This document shows, piece by piece, positions 2,555 through 35,129 of a stretch of DNA of 64,000 bases. Both the position numbers and the translations under genes were made by a program. The notes beneath the pieces are model-generated. The model was not told the origin of the DNA. It saw only the letters and a program-made list of their open reading frames with translations, and searched no databases. The stretch is from Salinisphaera orenii subsp. orenii MK-B5. Its GTDB lineage: Bacteria; Pseudomonadota; Gammaproteobacteria; Nevskiales; Salinisphaeraceae. The stretch spans positions 62,001 to 126,000 of the forward strand of contig NZ_AYKH01000001.1 of assembly GCF_003788635.1 (NCBI RefSeq), written 5' to 3'. Numbering within the stretch: the stretch's first letter is position 1; each line of letters begins with the position of its first letter.

Positions 2555-3916
2555 CTACCCGAGCAAGCGCAGGATATCGTTGTAGAAAGCCAGAGTCATG
2601 AGCATGAGCAGGGCAACCATGCCCGCCTGCTGACCCGCCACCTGTACAGCCTCAGACAGAGGCCGCCCCCGTATCCATTCGATCGAATAATACAGAAGAT
2701 GCCCCCCATCCAACACCGGGACGGGCAACAGGTTGAGCACCGCCAGACTGACGCTGACGAGTGCGAGGAAGCCAACGAAGGCCTCCAGACCAACGCTCGC
2801 GGTCTGGCCGGCGATGTTGGCGATCTGGATCGGGCCGCTGACGTTGCGCCAGGAGACGTCGCCGGTGACCATGCGCGCCATCAGCCGCACCGTCAGCGCC
2901 GAGACCTCCCAGGTCTTGTCGACGGCGGCGGGAATCGCCGCCAGCGGGCCGAGCTGACGCGTGGTGCGCATGGCATCCCAGGCCGCGGCATCGACACCGA
3001 TGCGTGCCCCAAGCTGGCCGCGGGGCTCACCGTCGTCGCCGTCGACCCGTGCCAGCGTCACCGGCAGTGTGAGCCGTTCGCCGTCGCGGGTGACGTCCAG
3101 TTCGACGCGTTCACCCGGCCGCGCCTGGACATAGTCGACCAGAGCCTGCGGCGAATCCAGTGCCCGCCCGTCGATGGCCGTGACATCATCCCCGCTCTCG
3201 AGACCCGCCCGTGCCGCGGGGGAATCGTCGACCACGCCCGCGATCCGCGGCGTCGCCGGCGGCTGGTAGGGGGCGAGCCCCAGGCGTTCGAACAGCGCTT
3301 CCGGATCGGACGGCGCGCTGCTCAGATCGATGGTGATCGAGCGTCGACCCGCGTCCGGCCGCGCCACATCGAGGGTGATCGGATCGCCGTCGAGGCCACG
3401 GTCGAGCAGCGTCAGGCGCAGCTCCTGCCAGTCACCCACCGCACGGTCGTCGATCGCCACAATTTCGTCCCGGGCCTGCAGGCCGGAGGCCGCCGCCAGC
3501 GTGCCGTCGGCGACCGGACCGATCACCGGCTTGATGCCGGCGACGCCGATCATGAACACGAACCAATAGGCCAGAATGGCGAACAGGAAGTTGACGCCCG
3601 GGCCCGCGGCGACGATGGCGATCCGCTTGGCCGGATGCTGTCGGTTGAAGGCGTAGGGCTTTTCCGATTCGGCAACCGCCCCTTCCCGCTCGTCGAGCAT
3701 CTTGACGTAACCGCCCAGCGGAATCGCCGACAGCCAGTACTCGACTCCGGAACGGCGACCGGTGAAGCCCCAGATACGCGTGCCGAAGCCGATCGAATAC
3801 CGCAGCACCTTCACGCCCATCCGACGCGCGACCCAGAAATGGCCGTATTCGTGGACCGCGACGAGGATGCCGATCGCCACGATGAATGCCGGTACCGACA
3901 TCAGCCAGTCAGACAT
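2555..3916 (-). CDS. rseP: Site-2 metalloprotease RseP (regulator of sigma-E protease)
   Basis: 453-residue inner membrane zinc protease. The first transmembrane helix carries the HEYGH zinc motif (residues 22-26). Two PDZ domains follow (about 105-190 and 200-285), and the C-terminal membrane part contains the LDGG metal/active-site motif (PVPVLDGGHLL). RseP cleaves anti-sigma factor RseA and remnant signal peptides during envelope stress. It sits between cdsA and bamA. In most gammaproteobacteria dxr lies between cdsA and rseP; here the 105-base gap holds no gene. Length and motif order are normal. Confidence 0.96.
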   Translation of the reverse strand: MSDWLMSVPAFIVAIGILVAVHEYGHFWVARRMGVKVLRYSIGFGTRIWGFTGRRSGVEYWLSAIPLGGYVKMLDEREGAVAESEKPYAFNRQHPAKRIAIVAAGPGVNFLFAILAYWFVFMIGVAGIKPVIGPVADGTLAAASGLQARDEIVAIDDRAVGDWQELRLTLLDRGLDGDPITLDVARPDAGRRSITIDLSSAPSDPEALFERLGLAPYQPPATPRIAGVVDDSPAARAGLESGDDVTAIDGRALDSPQALVDYVQARPGERVELDVTRDGERLTLPVTLARVDGDDGEPRGQLGARIGVDAAAWDAMRTTRQLGPLAAIPAAVDKTWEVSALTVRLMARMVTGDVSWRNVSGPIQIANIAGQTASVGLEAFVGFLALVSVSLAVLNLLPVPVLDGGHLLYYSIEWIRGRPLSEAVQVAGQQAGMVALLMLMTLAFYNDILRLLG

Positions 3917-4021: not shown

Positions 4022-4852
4022 CTAGACCTGCGCCGGCAGCCAGTGCAGCCCGGCAACAAACCACGGCGCGGCCGCGAGCACGCTGTCGAGACGGTCCAGC
4101 ACGCCGCCGTGGCCCGGAAACAGCGTACCGCTGTCCTTGCGCTGTGCGTGTCGCTTGAACATGCTGATCGTGAGATCGCCGACTATCGAAACGGCCGCGA
4201 CCCAGCCGGCCAGCACCATGAAGGCGATTGTACGCCCACCGCCGTAACCGAGCAGCCATGCGGCCGCAGCGCCCATGATCATGGCGGCGACCAGACCGCC
4301 CACAGCGCCCTCGATCGTCTTGCCCGGACTGACGCGCGGCGCCAGCTTGTGGCGGCCGAATCCCTTGCCGGCGAAATAGGCGCCGGTGTCCGCCGTCCAG
4401 ACGAGCACGAACAACGTCAGCAGCAACAGCACGCCGTCGTCGCTCTGATGCAGATAGGTCACCGCGGCGACCGGCGCAACCAGCGCGACGACGCCGACGG
4501 CCGCACCCGGGCCGAGGCGGCCAAGCACGCTGGACCAGCCCTGCGGGTAGCGCACGATCCAGGCGATCGCGGCCAGCCACCAAAGGCATGCCAGACCGAT
4601 CACGAACAGTTCCGCGCTCACCGGCAGCGGCGCGTTGCGCAGAAGCACGACCAGGCCCATCACCGCAGCAACGACCGCGACGAACACACCGCGACCGGTG
4701 GTCTCAAGGCGCACAAGGCCGCCCCATTCCCAGGCGCCGAGCAGCATCAGCGCCGAGAATACGAGCGCGATCGCGCCGGTCGGCAGAAACAGCATGCCCA
4801 GGACCGCGATGGGCACCACCACGGCCGCGGTCGCGATTCGCGTGGCCAGCAT
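4022..4852 (-). CDS. cdsA: Phosphatidate cytidylyltransferase (CDP-diglyceride synthase)
   Basis: 276-residue polytopic membrane enzyme that makes CDP-diacylglycerol from phosphatidic acid and CTP, the branch point of phospholipid synthesis. Several hydrophobic segments are seen from residue 1 onward. The CDP-alcohol synthase signature lies near residues 155-185 (DTGAYFAGKGFGRHKLAP followed by SPGKTIEG). The start is 2 bases past the uppS stop, consistent with translational coupling. The next gene downstream is rseP rather than the expected dxr. Confidence 0.95.
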   Translation of the reverse strand: MLATRIATAAVVVPIAVLGMLFLPTGAIALVFSALMLLGAWEWGGLVRLETTGRGVFVAVVAAVMGLVVLLRNAPLPVSAELFVIGLACLWWLAAIAWIVRYPQGWSSVLGRLGPGAAVGVVALVAPVAAVTYLHQSDDGVLLLLTLFVLVWTADTGAYFAGKGFGRHKLAPRVSPGKTIEGAVGGLVAAMIMGAAAAWLLGYGGGRTIAFMVLAGWVAAVSIVGDLTISMFKRHAQRKDSGTLFPGHGGVLDRLDSVLAAAPWFVAGLHWLPAQV

Positions 4853-4854
4853 GC

Positions 4855-5604
4855 TCAGCGGCCCGGTGCGGCCGCCTCCGGCAACCGACCGAAGCGCCGC
4901 TCGCGGCGGGCATACCAGTCGATCGCCTCCTCCAGCGCCTCGCGATCGAAGTCCGGCCAGAGACGATCAGTGAAGTAGAGCTCGCTGTAGGCGAGATCCC
5001 AGAGCAGGAAATTGCTGATCCGGCGCTCGCCGCCCGTGCGGATGAACAGATCGGGCTCGCGCACGTGCGCCAGGCTGCGATATCGGCCGAACACCGCTTC
5101 CGTGATGCCATCGGGATCCAGCCGTCCGGCCGCGCAGTCGCGCGCCATCTCGCGGGCGGCGCGCACCACGTCCCAGCGTCCGCCGAAGTCGACCGCAACG
5201 ACCAGATCGAGACCGTCGTTGTCGCGCGTGCGCGTCTCCGCGGTCTCCATGGCGCGCTGCAAGCCGGCGGAGAAATGGTCGCGCTCGCCGATGAAACTCA
5301 GGCGCACGTTGTTGTCGTGGAGCGAACCGAGCTCGCGCTGGATCGTCCGGCGAAACAGGTCCAGCAGCAGCCGGACTTCCGCACGCGGACGCTGCCAGTT
5401 CTCACTGGAGAAGGCGAAGACCGTCAGCACCCGGATACCGGTCTCGCGGGCGCTCTCGACGATCGCCCGGGCCGCGCGCGCGCCCGCCCGATGACCGGCG
5501 GCGCGCGGCAGACCACGCGCGTTCGCCCAGCGGCCGTTGCCGTCCATGATGACGGCCACATGTTCGGGAACAGTCATGGCAGCGGCGTCCGCGTGATGGC
5601 TCAA
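4855..5604 (-). CDS. uppS: Undecaprenyl diphosphate synthase (cis-prenyltransferase)
   Basis: 249 residues. It condenses eight isopentenyl diphosphates onto farnesyl diphosphate to give the C55 carrier lipid for peptidoglycan and LPS. The catalytic motif VAVIMDGNGRWA and the C-terminal RTGGERRISNFLLWD region are intact. Its ATG overlaps the frr stop by 4 bases (ATGA). A second in-frame Met lies at residue 10 just before VPEHVAVIMDG, so the true start could be 27 bases downstream. It needs an isopentenyl diphosphate supply, relevant to the missing dxr and ispH neighbours. Confidence 0.96.
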   Translation of the reverse strand: MSHHADAAAMTVPEHVAVIMDGNGRWANARGLPRAAGHRAGARAARAIVESARETGIRVLTVFAFSSENWQRPRAEVRLLLDLFRRTIQRELGSLHDNNVRLSFIGERDHFSAGLQRAMETAETRTRDNDGLDLVVAVDFGGRWDVVRAAREMARDCAAGRLDPDGITEAVFGRYRSLAHVREPDLFIRTGGERRISNFLLWDLAYSELYFTDRLWPDFDREALEEAIDWYARRERRFGRLPEAAAPGR

Positions 5605-15003: not shown

Positions 15004-16140
15004 ATGGCGGAGGCGGCACTCGAACTGGCCCGGGCGCTGATCGCGCGCGCCTCGGTCACGCCGGACGATGCCGGCTGCCAGGCGCTGATCGCCGAGCGCC
15101 TGGCCGCCGCCGGTTTCGAGATCCATCACCTTCGCTTCGGCGAAGTCGACAACCTCTGGGCCGTGGCCGGCGACAGCGGGCCGCTGCTGTGCTTTGCCGG
15201 GCACACCGATGTTGTGCCCCCGGGGCCTGTCGAGGATTGGCATCACGAGCCCTTCTCCGCAGAGCTCGCCGACGGCTGGCTCTACGGCCGCGGCGCGGCG
15301 GACATGAAATCCAGCGTCGCGGCGATGGTCTGCGCCTCGGAGCGTTTCCGCGCGGCCCATCCCGACCACGCCGGTCGGCTGGGGTTTCTCATCACCAGCG
15401 ACGAGGAAGGCCCCGCCGTCGACGGCACCCGGGCCGTGGTCGACTGGCTCGCCGAGCGCGATATCGCCATCGACTACTGCGTGGTGGGTGAACCCTCCAG
15501 CACCGCCGCACTCGGCGACACGCTGCGCAACGGCCGCCGTGGCAGCCTCAACGGCCATGTGCGGGTGCGTGGCCGGCAGGGCCACGTGGCCTATCCGGAC
15601 AGCGCCGACAACGCCCTGCACCGGCTTGTTGGGCTACTCGCCGACCTCGGCGCCCAGCATTGGGACGACGGCGACGATTTCTTTCCCCCGACTTCTTTTC
15701 AGGTCTCCAACATCCGGGCCGGCACCGGCGCGGAAAACGTGATCCCCGGCACGGCGGAGGCCCGTTTCAACTGGCGCTTCAATCCCTGCCAGGACGAAGC
15801 CGGCCTGCGAGCGCGGGTGGAACGTCTAGCCGAGGCGCACGGCATCGACACCGACGCCTTCGAATGGCGGCTGTCCGGGCATCCGTTCGTCACCCGCCCC
15901 GGCGCGCTGATCGACGCCACCCGGGCCGCCGTCGCGGAGGTCTGCGGCACGGCGCCCGCGCTGTCGACCGGCGGCGGGACGTCCGACGGGCGCTTCATCG
16001 CCCCGACCGGCGCCGAGGTGATCGAGCTCGGTCCGCTCAACGCCACCATTCACCAGGTCAACGAACACATCGCCGCCGCCGACGTGGCCCGCCTCAGCGA
16101 CATCTACGAACGCATCGCGGCCCGCCTGCTCGGCGGCTGA
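15004..16140 (+). CDS. dapE: Succinyl-diaminopimelate desuccinylase DapE
   Basis: 378-residue M20 metallohydrolase. The metal ligands are visible in CFAGHTDVVPPG (His), GRGAADMKSS (Asp) and TSDEEGPAVDGT (Glu pair), with a late STGGGTSDGRF and NATIHQVNE motif. It releases succinate to give LL-diaminopimelate. It is the last gene of the map-glnD-dapC-dapD-yffB-dapE string and converges on the patatin gene after 31 bases. Length and motifs are normal. Confidence 0.96.
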   Translation: MAEAALELARALIARASVTPDDAGCQALIAERLAAAGFEIHHLRFGEVDNLWAVAGDSGPLLCFAGHTDVVPPGPVEDWHHEPFSAELADGWLYGRGAADMKSSVAAMVCASERFRAAHPDHAGRLGFLITSDEEGPAVDGTRAVVDWLAERDIAIDYCVVGEPSSTAALGDTLRNGRRGSLNGHVRVRGRQGHVAYPDSADNALHRLVGLLADLGAQHWDDGDDFFPPTSFQVSNIRAGTGAENVIPGTAEARFNWRFNPCQDEAGLRARVERLAEAHGIDTDAFEWRLSGHPFVTRPGALIDATRAAVAEVCGTAPALSTGGGTSDGRFIAPTGAEVIELGPLNATIHQVNEHIAAADVARLSDIYERIAARLLGG

Positions 16141-16171
16141 CGGCCGCGGGCGCGACGGCGTCCGCCGCCGC

Positions 16172-17998
16172 TCAGCGCTGATCGCTGCGGTTGCCCAGCA
16201 CGCGTTCGCGCACCGGCTCGTCGCGGTCGGCGAGCCACTCGTCCAGCATTTGATCGGCGTGGTGATAGGCGCGATAGACGACCTCGTCCATTTCGTCCCA
16301 GTCGAACATGCTCACGTCGCTGACCGGCATGTGCAGGACCAGATCAGCCCGCGAGTCGATATCCCGGCTTTCGCGCTCGCTGGTCAGCGTCGCGGTGTGG
16401 AACAGGATCTTGAACATGTTCAGATGCCGGGCCGCCGCGCCGACCGACAGCAGCGACGTGGTCTGCGCATCCTCGGCGGTGTCGACGCGCAGATTCGGCT
16501 CCCGGCTGACGTCGGAGACGATGATGCGACCCCGGCCGAAGGCGGCCATCGGCTCGAACGGGATCGCACTCAACAGGCCGCCGTCGACCAACAGATCCCC
16601 CTGATGCACGATCGGCGGCGCGATTCCGGGCACCGCCATGCTCGCCCCGACCCAGGTCGCGAGCGCGCCGCTGTCGTGCACCATGGGCGTGCCCCGCGTC
16701 AGATTGGTGCTCAGGCAGTAGAACGGGATGTCGAGATCCTCGATACGGCGCTCGCCGAACAGGACCCGCAGCTGTCGGTGGAACTTCTGCGCGCTGATCA
16801 GCGAGATTCTCGACAGCGAGTAGTCGTTGAGAAACTTGCCGGTGACGAACGTCGCGCGCAGCCGGGCCAGCAGCTCGTGCGCGTCGTAGCCCATGGCCAC
16901 CAGCGCGGCGACCATCGCCCCCATGCTCGTGCCGCCGACGGCATCGATGGGAATGCCGCGCTCCTGCAGTGCGCGCACAAGCCCCACGTGGGCGAAACCG
17001 CGAGCCCCGCCGCCGCCCAGCACGAGACAGACCCCGCGCCCGGAGACGAGCCGTGCCAGCCGCGCGATATCGCGCGGCGGCAGCGTGCGTTCGACGCGGT
17101 GATGGATGTCCGCGCCGACACGTTCGCGCCATGCAAGCCCGGAATAGCGCGCATCGCCGTCGTGCAATAGTGCGAGTTCGCGCGGCGCCCTTAGATTCTG
17201 CTCACCGAGCCAGGCCAGATTGCGCGAGACGAACGGGCGCTGGTCGGCGCTGGCCACCACGAGAATACGATCGGCCTGACGCAGGCAGCGCCGCGTCCAG
17301 GCGTCGGGCGCGGCGCTGCCCTGATAGACCAGATAGCGATAGCGATCCTCGAGCTGAGTGAGCCAGCCGGTGAGACGGCGGTGACGGTCACCGCCGCCGA
17401 AATCGGTCGCGGCCATGCCCTCGCCCAGCGCCTGCTCCACCCGCGCGACGTCCAGGCGCAGGGTGGCGGCGACCCGCCCGAGCTCCGCGGACAGCGCGTG
17501 CGCGAACGCCGCCACATCGACGCCCGGATGGGCCGGTACCACGGCGTAGGTGCGGGTACTGCGCACGCTCTCGCGTTCGGGTGCCGGCGTGACCGCACGC
17601 AGGCGGGCCACCACCAGCCGGGTGACCTGAAGCATGGCCGTGGGATGTCGCACGACGAGGTCGTCGAACACCTCGCGCGAGAGGCGAATCATCGCGGTGT
17701 CGCGCAGGGCGTAGGCGTCCGCGGTGTGGCGCTCGGCCGTCACCAGCGTGATCTCGCCGACAGTGTCGCCGGCACCGACCTCGCCGAGCATCAGCGGCGG
17801 GCCGTCGGCGTTCGTGCCGACCACGCGAATGCGCCCGTTGACGATCAGATAGAGCGCGTCGCTGGGCTGGCCGACACGAAACAGGTATTCACCGCCGCCG
17901 ATCTCGATCCATTCCGCGCGGGCCGCCGCCGCGCGCAGGGCACGCCGGTCGAGATCACGGAACAGCGCGTTGGCTTTCAGCGCTGCCTGTATATCCAT
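16172..17998 (-). CDS. Patatin-like phospholipase with cyclic-nucleotide-binding-type sensor domain (NTE/RssA family)
   Basis: 608 residues. A cNMP-binding-like beta-roll occupies residues 1-130. A degenerate Rossmann-like middle region (about 150-310, with PWTRRCLRQAD-like DAWTRRCLRQADRIL) follows, and then a patatin domain (about 315-490). Patatin residues are intact: oxyanion loop GGGGARG near 323-329, nucleophile serine in GTSMG near 357, and the catalytic Asp in VDGG near 473. The architecture matches bacterial homologues of neuropathy target esterase, which hydrolyse lysophospholipids. No transmembrane helix is evident. It is monocistronic; a TAGAAT box lies only 6 bases before the ATG. 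Confidence 0.92.
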   Translation of the reverse strand: MDIQAALKANALFRDLDRRALRAAAARAEWIEIGGGEYLFRVGQPSDALYLIVNGRIRVVGTNADGPPLMLGEVGAGDTVGEITLVTAERHTADAYALRDTAMIRLSREVFDDLVVRHPTAMLQVTRLVVARLRAVTPAPERESVRSTRTYAVVPAHPGVDVAAFAHALSAELGRVAATLRLDVARVEQALGEGMAATDFGGGDRHRRLTGWLTQLEDRYRYLVYQGSAAPDAWTRRCLRQADRILVVASADQRPFVSRNLAWLGEQNLRAPRELALLHDGDARYSGLAWRERVGADIHHRVERTLPPRDIARLARLVSGRGVCLVLGGGGARGFAHVGLVRALQERGIPIDAVGGTSMGAMVAALVAMGYDAHELLARLRATFVTGKFLNDYSLSRISLISAQKFHRQLRVLFGERRIEDLDIPFYCLSTNLTRGTPMVHDSGALATWVGASMAVPGIAPPIVHQGDLLVDGGLLSAIPFEPMAAFGRGRIIVSDVSREPNLRVDTAEDAQTTSLLSVGAAARHLNMFKILFHTATLTSERESRDIDSRADLVLHMPVSDVSMFDWDEMDEVVYRAYHHADQMLDEWLADRDEPVRERVLGNRSDQR

Positions 17999-26853: not shown

Positions 26854-27327
26854 ATGTCTATACATGTTCAGCAAGACAAAGCAACCTTCGGAAAGCCGTG
26901 TGTTAGCCCGTCATTCCTGTCGACGGACGAGGCACAGGGCCGGCGATGCGCGGGCGAAGGCAGCTCCGGGTTCACGCTCATCGAATTGATGATCGTGCTC
27001 TTGATCGTGGCGATACTCGCCGCGATCGCCTATCCCGCCTATACGGGATATCTACGAAGTGCGCAGCGCGCTGATGCTCAGGCCGCCCTCATGAATGCGG
27101 CGCAGCGACTGGAGCGGCGTTATACCGCCGCGGGCGAGTACAGCGCCGCGCAGACAACGATTGCTTCGGAGCAGGGATACTGGACGGTGAAGGTGGACAT
27201 CACGGATAGCGGCCAGAGTTATTTCCTCACCGCCCAGAAGACGGACAAGGGCGTGACGGACGCCACCTGCAGCGGCAGCATGACCCTAGACCCTCAGGGT
27301 CGACGCGAACCGGATTCATGCTGGTGA
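26854..27327 (+). CDS. pilE: Type IV pilin-like protein PilE
   Basis: 157 residues. The prepilin peptidase site is GEGSSG (Gly 39) followed by FTLIELMIVLLIVAILAAIAYPAYTGYLRSA with Glu +5. A C-terminal disulfide loop is suggested by Cys 139 and Cys 156. The 39-residue leader is long for a class III pilin; no closer in-frame ATG is seen. The protein resembles the PilE of minor pilin clusters rather than a major pilin, judging by context. In most gammaproteobacteria pilE ends the fimT-pilV-pilW-pilX-pilY1 operon; here it is divergent on the opposite strand and pilY1 is not found. Confidence 0.88.
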   Translation: MSIHVQQDKATFGKPCVSPSFLSTDEAQGRRCAGEGSSGFTLIELMIVLLIVAILAAIAYPAYTGYLRSAQRADAQAALMNAAQRLERRYTAAGEYSAAQTTIASEQGYWTVKVDITDSGQSYFLTAQKTDKGVTDATCSGSMTLDPQGRREPDSCW

Positions 27328-27538
27328 GCCCGTTTCATACGCGCCATTATCGACCCTCGCGACGACATATCGACAACGAACCAATTACCGAAGAGCATCG
27401 GTGCGGCCCGCAAGCGTTCAATCGACGCGACGAACGTCGTTCTCGGCGAACCCGGCCACTCTTGTCGATAACAAAAGCGAATGGCTGTCGGGGCACGCGC
27501 TCACGTCAGTTAGTTCTAGGCGTCTCCGGACCAAACAG

Positions 27539-28057
27539 TCAACGTACTGGCGGGTCATTCCGCCCAAAGAGCATGTCGACACCAAGCAGAATGGCGCCGA
27601 GCACGATGGCGCTGTCGGCGACGTTGAACGCGGGGTAATGCCAGCCCTGGATGTGAAAATCCACAAAGTCGATGACGTAGCCCCGGGTTGCGCGATCGAT
27701 GGCGTTGCCGAGCGCACCGCCCAGAATCAGCGCCAGCGACGCCGCGACCAGCCGCTCGCCGTGGGGATGGCGCCGCATCCAGATCAGGATGCCCACGGAG
27801 ACCAGCACGCTGAGTGCCACGAACAGCCACGGGGTGGCGCCGGCGAATATGCTGAACGCCGCCCCGGTATTGTGCATGAGCGTGAGGTTGAGCCAGTCGA
27901 AGACCGGAATACGATCGAATAGCGCCAGGTTGTTGACCACCAGCTGCTTGGTGATCTGATCGGCCACGATGAGCACGGCGGACAGCCACAGCCAGTGCGC
28001 GTTCTGTAGCTGGAAGCCCCGCTCGTGGGTCACGGCCTTTTCGGAGGAAGACGTCAT
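27539..28057 (-). CDS. lspA: Lipoprotein signal peptidase (signal peptidase II)
   Basis: 172 residues with four membrane helices. The catalytic Asp motifs GGALGNAIDRATRGYVIDFVDF and FNVADSAIVLG are intact, with the NNLALF and HNTGAAFS segments before them. It removes signal peptides from prolipoproteins in the inner membrane; the predicted amidase lipoprotein would be a client. The start is fixed by a 4-base ATGA overlap with the ribF stop. ileS normally separates ribF and lspA, and fkpB-ispH normally follow; none is present. Positions 27328-27538 hold no recognisable gene. Confidence 0.96.
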   Translation of the reverse strand: MTSSSEKAVTHERGFQLQNAHWLWLSAVLIVADQITKQLVVNNLALFDRIPVFDWLNLTLMHNTGAAFSIFAGATPWLFVALSVLVSVGILIWMRRHPHGERLVAASLALILGGALGNAIDRATRGYVIDFVDFHIQGWHYPAFNVADSAIVLGAILLGVDMLFGRNDPPVR

Positions 28058-28992
28058 GATGATCGGCGCTCTTGCAGGCACGCGCGCACGCGGTCGACGT
28101 CGCGGTGCATCTGGTCGGTCAGCGCCTCGAGCGAGTCGAAGCGCACTTCTTCACGGATAAACGACTCAAAGGATACGTCAACCCGCTGCCCGTATAAATC
28201 GCCCTCGAAATCGAGCAGGTACACCTCGAGCAGCGGCTCGCGCCCGTTGACCGTGGGCCGCACACCAAAACTCGCCGCGCCGCTTCGACGCGTGCCGTCG
28301 GCCAGCCCGACCTCGACCGCGTAGACACCGTAGCGCGGTGCAGGCCGACGGGCCAGCCGAATATTAAGCGTCGGAAAACCGAGCGTACGCCCCAGGCGTT
28401 CGCCAGTGACCACCCGGCCACTCACACGATAGCTGTGGCCGAGCAGGCGCGCGGCCTGATCCGGCCGGCCGTCGGCGAGCGCGCGCCGCACCCGGGTGGA
28501 ACTCACGCGGGCGCCGTCCACACAGATCTCCGGCAGCGGCGCGATGTCCACGCCGCGCTGCGCCGCATGGGCCCGGAGCAGCGCGACATCGCCCGTACGG
28601 CCCCGGCCGAAACGGAAATCTTCGCCGACGAGAATATGACGGGCGTCGAGTCGTCGTTCGAGCAGATCCGTGATGAACCTGTCCGCAGACATCGCCGCGA
28701 ATTCGGCATCGAAACGTGCGCAGGCGACGATGTCCACGCCCAGCGCGCGAGCGTCCTCGAGCTTTTCCCGCAGGGATGACAGCCGCGCTGGCGCGCCGTC
28801 CGGATCGAAAAAGGCCCGTGGCATCGGCTCGAACGTCATCACCACGCTCGGCAGCTGCAGTGCTCGCGCACGCTCGCGCAGGCGGGCGATGATCGCCTGA
28901 TGGCCGAGATGCAGGCCATCGAAGTTGCCGATCGTCAGCACGCAGCCGCCGGGCAACCCCGCGCAGCGCTGGACCGAACGGATCACGCGCAC
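28054..28992 (-). CDS. ribF: Bifunctional riboflavin kinase / FAD synthetase
   Basis: 312 residues. The N-terminal FAD synthetase domain shows LTIGNFDGLHLGHQAII, and the C-terminal riboflavin kinase domain shows TLGFPTLNIRL and GVRPTVNG. It makes FMN and then FAD from riboflavin. A GTG start 2 bases after the murJ stop is chosen, with GGCGGAG upstream; a second GTG two codons later is also possible. It is directly coupled to lspA. Confidence 0.95.
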   Translation of the reverse strand: MRVIRSVQRCAGLPGGCVLTIGNFDGLHLGHQAIIARLRERARALQLPSVVMTFEPMPRAFFDPDGAPARLSSLREKLEDARALGVDIVACARFDAEFAAMSADRFITDLLERRLDARHILVGEDFRFGRGRTGDVALLRAHAAQRGVDIAPLPEICVDGARVSSTRVRRALADGRPDQAARLLGHSYRVSGRVVTGERLGRTLGFPTLNIRLARRPAPRYGVYAVEVGLADGTRRSGAASFGVRPTVNGREPLLEVYLLDFEGDLYGQRVDVSFESFIREEVRFDSLEALTDQMHRDVDRVRACLQERRSS

Positions 28993-28994
28993 GA

Positions 28995-30560
28995 TCAGCG
29001 CTCCGCCGGCAGGGCGAGATGACGCGGCCGCACCCCGGCGAGCGCCAGGACGACGAAATAGACGCCGATACCGGCGCCCACCCAGGCGAACAGCCAGCCG
29101 ACGCGCTGCAGCGCCGCGCGCCCGACCCACACGTCCAGATCCGCGGCGCCGTAGACCAGCACCGCCGCCATCGCGGCGCAGCCCAGCAGCACACGCAGTG
29201 CCAGCCAGCGCCAGTCCGAGCCCGGCGTATACACCCGGTCCCGGCGCAGATACCGGTACAGCAGTCCGGCATTGACGAACGCGCCGAGCGAGGTCGCCAG
29301 CGCCAGGCCGGAATGGGGCGCGGGCAGGCTCAACGCCGTGAACGCCCCGACGAACAACAGATTCATGGCCATCGCGCTGACCATCGAAATCACGCCGCAG
29401 CGGACGGGCGTGCGCGAGTCTTCGCGCGAGAAAAAGCCGGTCACCAGCACCTTGACCAAGGAAAACCCCATGAATCCAAACGCATAGGCCATGAGCGCGT
29501 ACTGACTCATCAGCGCATCATGACCGGTGAAGGAACGATAATTGAACAACGTGGCCACCAGCGGCCCGGCCAGCACGAACAGGCCGATCATCGCCGGCAG
29601 CCCCAGCAGGACGATCATCTTCAGCGCCCAGTCCAGCGTATCCGAGAAAGCCGCTGCCGATCGGCTCGCATGGCGCGCGGACAGGTTCGGCAGGATCACC
29701 GTCGCGATCGCGATCGAGAACACCCCCAGCGGGAACTCCATCAGTCGGTCCGCGTAGTAGAGCCAGCTGACGCTGCCCGAGGCCAGAAACGACGCCATGA
29801 TCGTATCAAGCATGAGGTTGATCTGGGCCACCGACGAACCGAACAGTATCGGCAGCATTAGTGACAGAATGCGGCGAACCTGTGGATCGTGCCAGCCCCA
29901 GCGCGGACGCGGGAAATGCCCCAGCCGGGCGAGAAACGGCAGCTGGAAGGCGAGCTGGACCACCCCGGCGATCAACACGCCGATCGCCAGCGCGATCTCC
30001 GGGCGAGCGAACCAGGGCGCCAGTCCGATCGCGACACTGATCAGCGACAGATTGAGCAGCACCGGCGTGAACGCCGGCACCGCGAACTGACCGTAGGTGT
30101 TGAGAATACCGCCCGCGAACGCCGTCAGGGAGATGAACAGCAGATAGGGAAAGGTCAGCCGCAGCAGATCCACGGCGAGATCGAACTGCTCGGTCGCGCC
30201 GGCGAACCCGGGCGCGAATAGATAGATCAGCAGCGGCGCGCCGACGATGCCGACCACGGTCACACCAATTAGAATCACGCCGAGCGTGCCCGCGACAACG
30301 TTGATCAGATCCTGTGTGGCTTCGGTCCCGTCGCGGCTTTTCGTCGACGACAGCACTGGCACGAAGGACTGGGCGAACGCGCCCTCCGCGAACAGCCGAC
30401 GCATGAAATTGGGGATCTTGAAGGCGACGAGAAACGCGTCCATGCCCGGCCCGGCGCCGAACAGGATCGCGAACGCCATGTCGCGCAGAAACCCGAACAC
30501 ACGCGAAGCGAGCGTCATCACGCCGACCACGCCCGTGGATTTCGCTAACGACGATGCCAT
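28995..30560 (-). CDS. murJ: Lipid II flippase MurJ
   Basis: 521 residues, polytopic (about 14 hydrophobic segments) of the MVF superfamily. The start SSLAKSTGVVGVMTLASRVFGFLRD and the GMDAFLVAFKIPNFMRRLFAEGAF segment with conserved Arg residues are hallmarks. It flips undecaprenyl-linked peptidoglycan precursor across the inner membrane. ATG 30560 is preferred over the GTG just before it. It heads the murJ-ribF-lspA operon and is divergent from rpsT, as usual. Confidence 0.97.
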   Translation of the reverse strand: MASSLAKSTGVVGVMTLASRVFGFLRDMAFAILFGAGPGMDAFLVAFKIPNFMRRLFAEGAFAQSFVPVLSSTKSRDGTEATQDLINVVAGTLGVILIGVTVVGIVGAPLLIYLFAPGFAGATEQFDLAVDLLRLTFPYLLFISLTAFAGGILNTYGQFAVPAFTPVLLNLSLISVAIGLAPWFARPEIALAIGVLIAGVVQLAFQLPFLARLGHFPRPRWGWHDPQVRRILSLMLPILFGSSVAQINLMLDTIMASFLASGSVSWLYYADRLMEFPLGVFSIAIATVILPNLSARHASRSAAAFSDTLDWALKMIVLLGLPAMIGLFVLAGPLVATLFNYRSFTGHDALMSQYALMAYAFGFMGFSLVKVLVTGFFSREDSRTPVRCGVISMVSAMAMNLLFVGAFTALSLPAPHSGLALATSLGAFVNAGLLYRYLRRDRVYTPGSDWRWLALRVLLGCAAMAAVLVYGAADLDVWVGRAALQRVGWLFAWVGAGIGVYFVVLALAGVRPRHLALPAER

Positions 30561-34160: not shown

Positions 34161-35129
34161 ATGAGTATTCAGCCGCTTTTCGAGCCGGTCGAGGACGACA
34201 TGCGCGCGGTCGACGCCCTCATACGGCAGCGGCTGAATTCGGACGTGGTCCTCATCAACACGCTCGGCGAGTACATCATCGCAAGCGGCGGCAAGCGCCT
34301 GCGGCCCGCGCTGGTGCTGCTGGCGGCGCGCGCGAGCGGCTACACCGGCGATCAGCACCACCTGCTCGCCACCATCATCGAGTTCATCCATACCGCCACG
34401 CTGCTGCACGACGACGTCGTCGACGAGTCCACGCTGCGGCGCGGGCGCGACACCGCGAACACGCTCTGGGGCAACGACGCGAGCGTACTCACCGGCGATT
34501 TCCTCTATTCGCGCGCCTTTCAGATGATGGTGGAGCTCGACTCCTTCCAGATCATGCGCGTGCTCGCGGACGCGACCAACCGCATCGCGGAAGGCGAGGT
34601 CATGCAGCTGATGCACAGTCACAATCCCGACCTCGCGGAAAACGACTATCTGGAAGTCGTCGATCGCAAGACAGCCAGCCTGTTCGCCGCCGGCTGTCGG
34701 CTGGCCGCCGAGCTGGCGGGCTGCGACGCCGCGCGCTGCGACGCCATGGCCACCTACGGCCGACACCTGGGCGTGGCCTTCCAGGTCATCGACGATTCGC
34801 TGGACTACGGCCGCGGCGACGGCGACTACGGCAAGAACGTCGGCGACGACCTCGCCGAAGGCAAGGCGACCCTGCCGCTGATCCGCGCGCTGTCGCAGGT
34901 CGAAGCCGCCGTGGGGGAACCGATCCGCCGGGCTCTGCGGGACGGCGATCGCGATGCGCTCGACGATGTGCTGAAAGCGATTGAATCGACCGATGCGATG
35001 GAATACACTTGCGGCCGCGCCGAGGGCGAAGCCGACAAGGCCGTCGCCGCACTCGACGTTTTCGACGAGTCGCCGTTCAAGGCGACACTCGTCTCGCTGG
35101 CCGAGTTTTCGGTTCAGCGCCGATACTGA
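34161..35129 (+). CDS. ispB: Polyprenyl diphosphate synthase (octaprenyl type)
   Basis: 322 residues of the trans-prenyltransferase family. The first Asp-rich motif is in LLHDDVVDESTLRRG (about 84-98), the second in QVIDDSLDYG (about 210-220), and GGKRLRPAL near the N-terminus binds substrate. It builds the side chain of ubiquinone from isopentenyl diphosphate. The exact chain length cannot be read from sequence alone. tRNA-Pro follows after 2 bases and may be cotranscribed. Confidence 0.94.
   Translation: MSIQPLFEPVEDDMRAVDALIRQRLNSDVVLINTLGEYIIASGGKRLRPALVLLAARASGYTGDQHHLLATIIEFIHTATLLHDDVVDESTLRRGRDTANTLWGNDASVLTGDFLYSRAFQMMVELDSFQIMRVLADATNRIAEGEVMQLMHSHNPDLAENDYLEVVDRKTASLFAAGCRLAAELAGCDAARCDAMATYGRHLGVAFQVIDDSLDYGRGDGDYGKNVGDDLAEGKATLPLIRALSQVEAAVGEPIRRALRDGDRDALDDVLKAIESTDAMEYTCGRAEGEADKAVAALDVFDESPFKATLVSLAEFSVQRRY

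Follow-up and report, generated by a model that had tools for sequence, protein, structure and literature searches.

The classical mevalonate pathway of bacteria is that of Staphylococcus, Streptococcus, and Enterococcus. In Enterococcus, one of its proteins, MvaE, is a fusion of thiolase and HMG-CoA reductase (HMGR). In Gammaproteobacteria, DXP also feeds the synthesis of vitamin B6 (through PdxJ) and thiamine (through ThiG). Within this class, a mevalonate pathway has been described as specific to the genus Wenzhouxiangella (PMC7691419), and a survey at the genus level lists genera that have switched route, genera with both routes or neither, and partial MEP remnants (PMC13001223). Mutants of E. 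coli in aceE and ribB make DXP without DXS (PMC3424233). Gaps in the B6 pathway are frequent and mostly lie early in the route, with no mention of a missing Dxs in the accessible part of that account (PMC9997740), and promiscuous routes to B6 have been described (PMC7954711). In the accessible part of another paper, the one appearance of Salinisphaera sp. LB1 is in a table that lists the outcome of complementation (PMC8896826).

We compare these systems with a 64,000-nucleotide stretch of Salinisphaera orenii subsp. orenii MK-B5 (hereafter, the window), which spans positions 62001-126000 of contig C1 (G000:C1:62001-126000). The genome measures 3.67 Mb, is 98.2% complete, and is held in 44 contigs. 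The features of the window that bear on isoprenoid synthesis are:

2555-3916, minus strand: rseP, site-2 protease (PF02163 and a PDZ domain)
4022-4852, minus strand: cdsA (PF01148, 189 bits)
4855-5604, minus strand: uppS, undecaprenyl diphosphate synthase, a consumer of isopentenyl diphosphate (IPP) (PF01255, 264 bits)
26854-27327, plus strand: type IV minor pilin, pilE/ComP-like (PF07963, N_methyl, and PF16732, ComP_DUS)
27328-27538, no strand: gene-free gap between the pilin gene and lspA, the site of ispH in IspH-bearing relatives; no open reading frame of note
27539-28081, minus strand: lspA, signal peptidase II (Pfam Peptidase_A8, PF01252, 148 bits)
28054-29130, minus strand: ribF, FAD synthetase/riboflavin kinase, overlapping lspA (PF06574 and PF01687)
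34161-35129, plus strand: ispB-like polyprenyl synthase, a consumer of IPP (PF00348, 256 bits)

The pilin gene and lspA are convergent, and the 211 bp between them contain no gene and no ispH. Of the 34 IspH-positive genomes, six were examined at the ispH locus, and in all six lspA immediately precedes ispH, at a spacing of about 10 bp at most or with an overlap. Judging by gene order, ispH is cleanly lost from the local lspA-ispH pair. A preliminary description of this DNA had reported both fkpB and ispH as absent after lspA. The absence of ispH is borne out, but fkpB is not the local norm, as none of the six relatives has room for it between lspA and ispH. The companion observation, that dxr is missing from its site between cdsA and rseP, also holds: the gap is 105 bp and contains no dxr. 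UppS and IspB need IPP, and the genes of both are kept in the window, as had been stated. On the other side of lspA, ribF abuts it without an intervening ileS, an arrangement also seen among IspH-bearing relatives (locus L015; genome G020). The missing ileS is thus ordinary for the group, because an IspH-bearing relative shows the same.

The preliminary description had proposed that the genes were either moved or made redundant by a replacement route, and a full MEP set elsewhere in the genome was looked for and not found. Our inventory covered DXS, DXR, IspE, and IspH. We find no match to IspH, DXR, or DXS in this 98.2%-complete genome, and none in the congener G008, whose assembly is a single 4.1-Mb contig. 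The GHMP kinase family has three places above cut-off, all within a mevalonate cluster on contig 3, and one further place outside the cluster, far below cut-off. Because every place above cut-off belongs to the cluster, we regard IspE as absent as well. As far as the genome sequence can tell, the MEP route cannot run in this strain. Replacement, rather than relocation, is what we find: four MEP enzymes are gone from the whole genome, and another contig encodes a mevalonate set that runs from HMG-CoA synthase to IPP isomerase.

The mevalonate cluster lies within locus L013 (C3:77500-97000 of the same genome; L013 coordinates are given below):

L013:7219-7809, cluster strand: IDI-1 (TIGR02150, 145.5 bits; cut-off, 105.8)
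L013:7819-10119, cluster strand: fusion of HMGR and mevalonate kinase (MK), 766 amino acids (TIGR00532 and TIGR00549)
L013:10116-11216, cluster strand: PMK (TIGR01220, 128.6 bits, below the cut-off of 165.7)
L013:11152-12183, cluster strand: MDD (TIGR01240, 284.0 bits; cut-off, 171)
L013:12273-13769, opposite strand (divergent): HMG-CoA synthase (PF01154, 57.7 bits, and PF08540, 43.3 bits, both above cut-off)

Thus, a divergent HMG-CoA synthase gene is followed by MDD, PMK, the HMGR::MK fusion, and IDI-1, and by predicted products this one cluster covers the mevalonate pathway from HMG-CoA synthase through IPP isomerase. The names PMK and HMG-CoA synthase rest on position and Pfam domains, as both proteins score below their NCBIfam equivalog cut-offs (for HMG-CoA synthase, 158.4 against 360.4 with TIGR01835). 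PMK sits between MDD and the fusion in all 21 loci of the order. MDD fits the classical diphosphate enzyme; the archaeal monophosphate model NF040704 reaches only 194 against a cut-off of 475. Near the cluster are a farnesyl diphosphate synthase gene and hpnG- and hpnM-like hopanoid genes, the latter two below their cut-offs. Beside HMG-CoA synthase, at L013:14275-15315 and 15321-16250 (minus strand), lie a Tas-like aldo-keto reductase gene and a phosphoribulokinase-like gene, which are found there in several Salinisphaera loci.

The 766–amino acid protein carries HMGR at residues 4-396 (TIGR00532, 408.7; cut-off, 260) and MK at residues 464-739 (TIGR00549, 245.6; cut-off, 163). Both domains are present in all 21 proteins aligned from 21 genomes of the order. 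Among the best 80 public loci, the fusion is always a single open frame, of 734 to 817 amino acids. The motifs EEPS, T.NKG, GND, HG..SG.D, and LTG.GGGG are found in 80 of these 80 loci; GEH.VVYG is present in 74 of them, and 67 show the pattern around GH..LHAR. We take all seven to be catalytic-site motifs. The AlphaFold model has a mean pLDDT of 75.9 and a pTM of 0.46, with values below 50 in a linker of about 20 residues (438-459). In PDB comparisons by Foldseek and phmmer, each half is matched on its own, one by class II reductases and the other by mevalonate kinases, and no chain covering both halves is among the matches listed. The reductase half is class II, with 50-51% identity to 6dio and 1qax by Foldseek and phmmer E-values of 2e-122 or better for both. 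On these data, the protein is one polypeptide with two intact-looking domains and a loose linker, and it would perform two consecutive steps, reduction and phosphorylation. Automatic naming may mislead here, because the NCBIfam reductase model is called "degradative."

The closest named record, from Salinisphaera halophila YIM 95161, is a fusion protein 99% identical to ours. No paper on a reductase-kinase fusion was found, by title or abstract opening, in the open-licence literature searched. On present evidence, the fusion appears to be new, while a swap from MEP to mevalonate is itself a known kind of event.

We find that the fusion coincides with loss of the MEP route across the order. The sample comprises 61 genomes (our own, 16 others of the family, and 44 of the order). 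A reductase frame of fusion size occurs in 27 of them, and all 27 are without IspH and DXR. The other 34, which have no such frame, all have both IspH and DXR (Fisher P = 6e-18, a value that is overstated, there being perhaps only two or three independent events). The fusion was aligned over both domains in 21 of the 27 and matched in five more; G059 is counted by frame length alone. An unfused HMGR of about 400 amino acids occurs in 12 of the 34 IspH-positive relatives (G019, G020, G022, G026, G029, G030, G032, G036, G044, G045, G048, and G058), where it could belong to a second mevalonate set or to mevalonate degradation. HMGR alone is therefore no marker of the swap.

The cluster is largely kept together. 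MDD, PMK, the fusion, and IDI occur together in all 21 loci of the order; among the best 80 public loci, MDD, PMK, and the fusion share one strand in 75, and in 62 IDI comes next in the same orientation. In a class-wide sample, the full-length fusion was detected in 9 of 369 genomes, three of them Salinisphaera, and among the best 80 public loci it spans several phyla. A quick maximum likelihood tree of the fusion (101 rows, midpoint root) splits, with an SH-aLRT of 100, into two groups: one joins Salinisphaeraceae with Microbacteriaceae (Cryobacterium and related genera), and the other holds Nevskia, Wenzhouxiangella, Rhodanobacteraceae, Calditrichota, and Balneolota. The separation of Salinisphaeraceae from Nevskia thus implies at least two swaps within the order. 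One record in this tree, "Lysobacterales bacterium SP48" (L044), falls inside Salinisphaera, and its title is likely wrong.

For 50 of the 80 fusion loci, and for six other entries, the genome was tested for IspH; many of these genomes are metagenome-assembled and of unknown completeness. IspH was found in 21 of these 56 fusion entries, or 20 of at most 55 distinct genomes (G099 and G464 are the same). The fusion and IspH occur together in Microbacteriaceae (7 of 8), Rhodanobacter (3 of 3), Marinobacter, Litchfieldella, and others. The fusion occurs without IspH in Dyella (3 of 3), the Wenzhouxiangella isolates (3 of 3), and all four Salinisphaera records. Thus, the fusion does not force loss of the MEP route, as IspH coexists with it in about one third of the genomes tested. 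Taken as a whole, the genomic evidence makes it highly probable that in Salinisphaeraceae the MEP route was replaced by a classical mevalonate pathway, by way of a lateral cluster with an HMGR::MK fusion; the pathway swap itself is secure.

In part of the order, the swap is accompanied, surprisingly, by a hole in vitamin synthesis. PdxJ is present in 60 of the 61 genomes and ThiG in all 61. A strong DXS match (E of 1e-59 or better) is found in 41 of 61, comprising 33 of the 34 MEP genomes and 8 of the 27 mevalonate genomes, the latter eight being the Nevskia group. None of the 17 genomes of the family has a strong DXS, nor do G041 and G051; 19 of the 27 mevalonate genomes of the order are thus without it. 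One MEP genome, G026, has DXR and IspH and no DXS match, which is probably an assembly gap, as its genus-mate G019 has DXS. The genes concerned in our own genome are:

C1:135409-136110: pdxJ
C3, about 98.9-99.9 kb (L163:3868-4866), minus strand: ThiS and ThiG in one protein, near the mevalonate cluster
L013:4491-5636, plus strand: phosphonopyruvate decarboxylase–like TPP enzyme (TIGR03297, 291 bits; cut-off, 312.5), beside the hpnG- and hpnM-like genes

The DXS-less mevalonate genomes contain 13 places weakly matched by the DXS model, nine of them in the family and four in G041 and G051. A divergent DXS was considered, but the nine places scanned fit best to transketolase (four) or to pyruvate dehydrogenase E1 alpha (five). 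All but one of the five E1 alpha rows are below the curated cut-off, and a true DXS used as a control scores 762 bits. A switch of B6 synthesis to PdxS would be expected upon loss of DXS, and was likewise rejected: PdxS exceeds its cut-off in none of the 61 genomes, with one match below cut-off, in G003. In an alignment of 15 DXS-less and five DXS-bearing rows, 75 columns of PdxJ are invariant, with none fixed differently between the two sets; for ThiG (18 DXS-less and four DXS-bearing rows) the number is 116, with three fixed differently. PdxJ and ThiG therefore look functional in these alignments, while DXP has no recognised source. As a gene pattern, this DXP hole is secure.

We lean toward the view that some common enzyme, promiscuous or altered, supplies traces of DXP, because the demand for DXP would drop steeply without the isoprenoid draw. 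Whether this free-living family, after acquiring the lateral HMGR-MK cluster, makes vitamins B6 and B1 through PdxJ and ThiG without DXS, and so harbors a novel natural supplier of DXP, seems to us an even call. No paper on PdxJ or ThiG without DXS was found by title or abstract opening in the open-licence literature searched.

A dedicated and as yet unrecognised enzyme for DXP synthesis, either of separate origin from DXS or highly diverged from it, might instead serve both PdxJ and ThiG, a reading that we hold possible but somewhat doubtful. Both DXP consumers are kept in every DXS-less mevalonate genome, as it would predict. However, no conserved candidate gene adjoins pdxJ or thiG, the neighbors seen there all being housekeeping or transport genes. 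The TPP enzyme beside the cluster was also considered as the source and rejected: it is present in 9 of the 16 family loci compared, our own and 15 others (some of the nine short), and a partner missing from several loci is not a constant one. It is unlikely that PdxJ and ThiG have no need of a DXP source, whether because they act on some different substrate or because they are idle relics. The absence of DXS from 19 mevalonate genomes, together with a report of ThiG promiscuity in B6 synthesis (PMC7954711), would fit this idea, but relics would not persist in 17 of 17 genomes, and the invariant columns of both enzymes are shared by DXS-less and DXS-bearing rows.

Two further alternatives concern the swap rather than the vitamins. 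The cluster could serve hopanoids or other secondary metabolism, with essential isoprenoids obtained elsewhere by salvage; the adjoining hpnG- and hpnM-like genes and the fusion lineages with IspH, in which the cluster need not be the sole route, are compatible with this. It is nonetheless very improbable, as Salinisphaeraceae are without any MEP route while uppS and ispB require IPP, and the fusion-size reductase frame is retained in 17 of 17 family genomes. The least credible alternative is that MEP genes are present but overlooked, for although our genome is incomplete and in many contigs, and G026 shows that gaps do occur, an assembly gap is ruled out by identical absences in all 17 family genomes, including a single-contig assembly, the weak DXS-model places that were scanned fit other enzymes best, and the sites at lspA and between cdsA and rseP have closed.

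The replacement of the MEP route by the mevalonate cluster probably proceeded as follows. MDD, PMK, the fusion, and IDI-1 would have arrived as a laterally travelling cluster, with the HMG-CoA synthase gene nearby. The fusion enzyme would make mevalonate and phosphorylate it, feeding PMK, MDD, and IDI-1, and the resulting IPP and DMAPP would go to IspA, IspB, UppS, and hopanoids. ispH and dxr would then be dispensable, which could explain their clean loss from lspA-ispH and cdsA-dxr-rseP. Demand for DXP would fall to traces, for the synthesis of vitamins B6 and B1, and DXS could be lost once PdxJ and ThiG, which were kept, received trace DXP from another enzyme.

When a pathway is replaced in a clade, usually the start and the end alone are visible. 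This order holds MEP genomes, mevalonate genomes with DXS, and mevalonate genomes without DXS, and some other carriers of the fusion have IspH. The coexistence of these states therefore makes the order of gene loss testable. The swap also predicts bacteria that are indifferent to fosmidomycin, and the missing DXP source opens the long-assumed single origin of DXP to experiment. The fusion would be a naturally occurring enzyme for two steps at the entry to the mevalonate route, and could be of use for enzymology and engineering.

The main text of the genus survey (PMC13001223), in its accessible part, does not include Salinisphaera, and its sole mention of a fusion concerns IspDF. Wenzhouxiangella resembles Salinisphaera in having a gammaproteobacterial mevalonate pathway, and its loci hold the same HMGR::MK fusion; the accessible part of the published account (PMC7691419) mentions no fusion, MEP loss, or DXP question. 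The E. coli bypass of DXS arises, in the portion of that work available, from laboratory suppressor mutations (PMC3424233), whereas in Salinisphaeraceae a whole family is without DXS. With the classical pathway, Salinisphaera shares HMG-CoA synthase, a class II HMGR, MK, MDD, and IPP isomerase, along with a putative PMK, all clustered. It differs in having HMGR and MK in one protein, in its type I isomerase, and in its setting, a gammaproteobacterium without the MEP route. PDB entry 7m1z is named acetyl-CoA C-acetyltransferase (compare MvaE). Like the Salinisphaera protein, MvaE joins a class II HMGR to a neighboring enzyme of the pathway; the partner is the upstream thiolase in MvaE, whereas it is the downstream mevalonate kinase in Salinisphaera.
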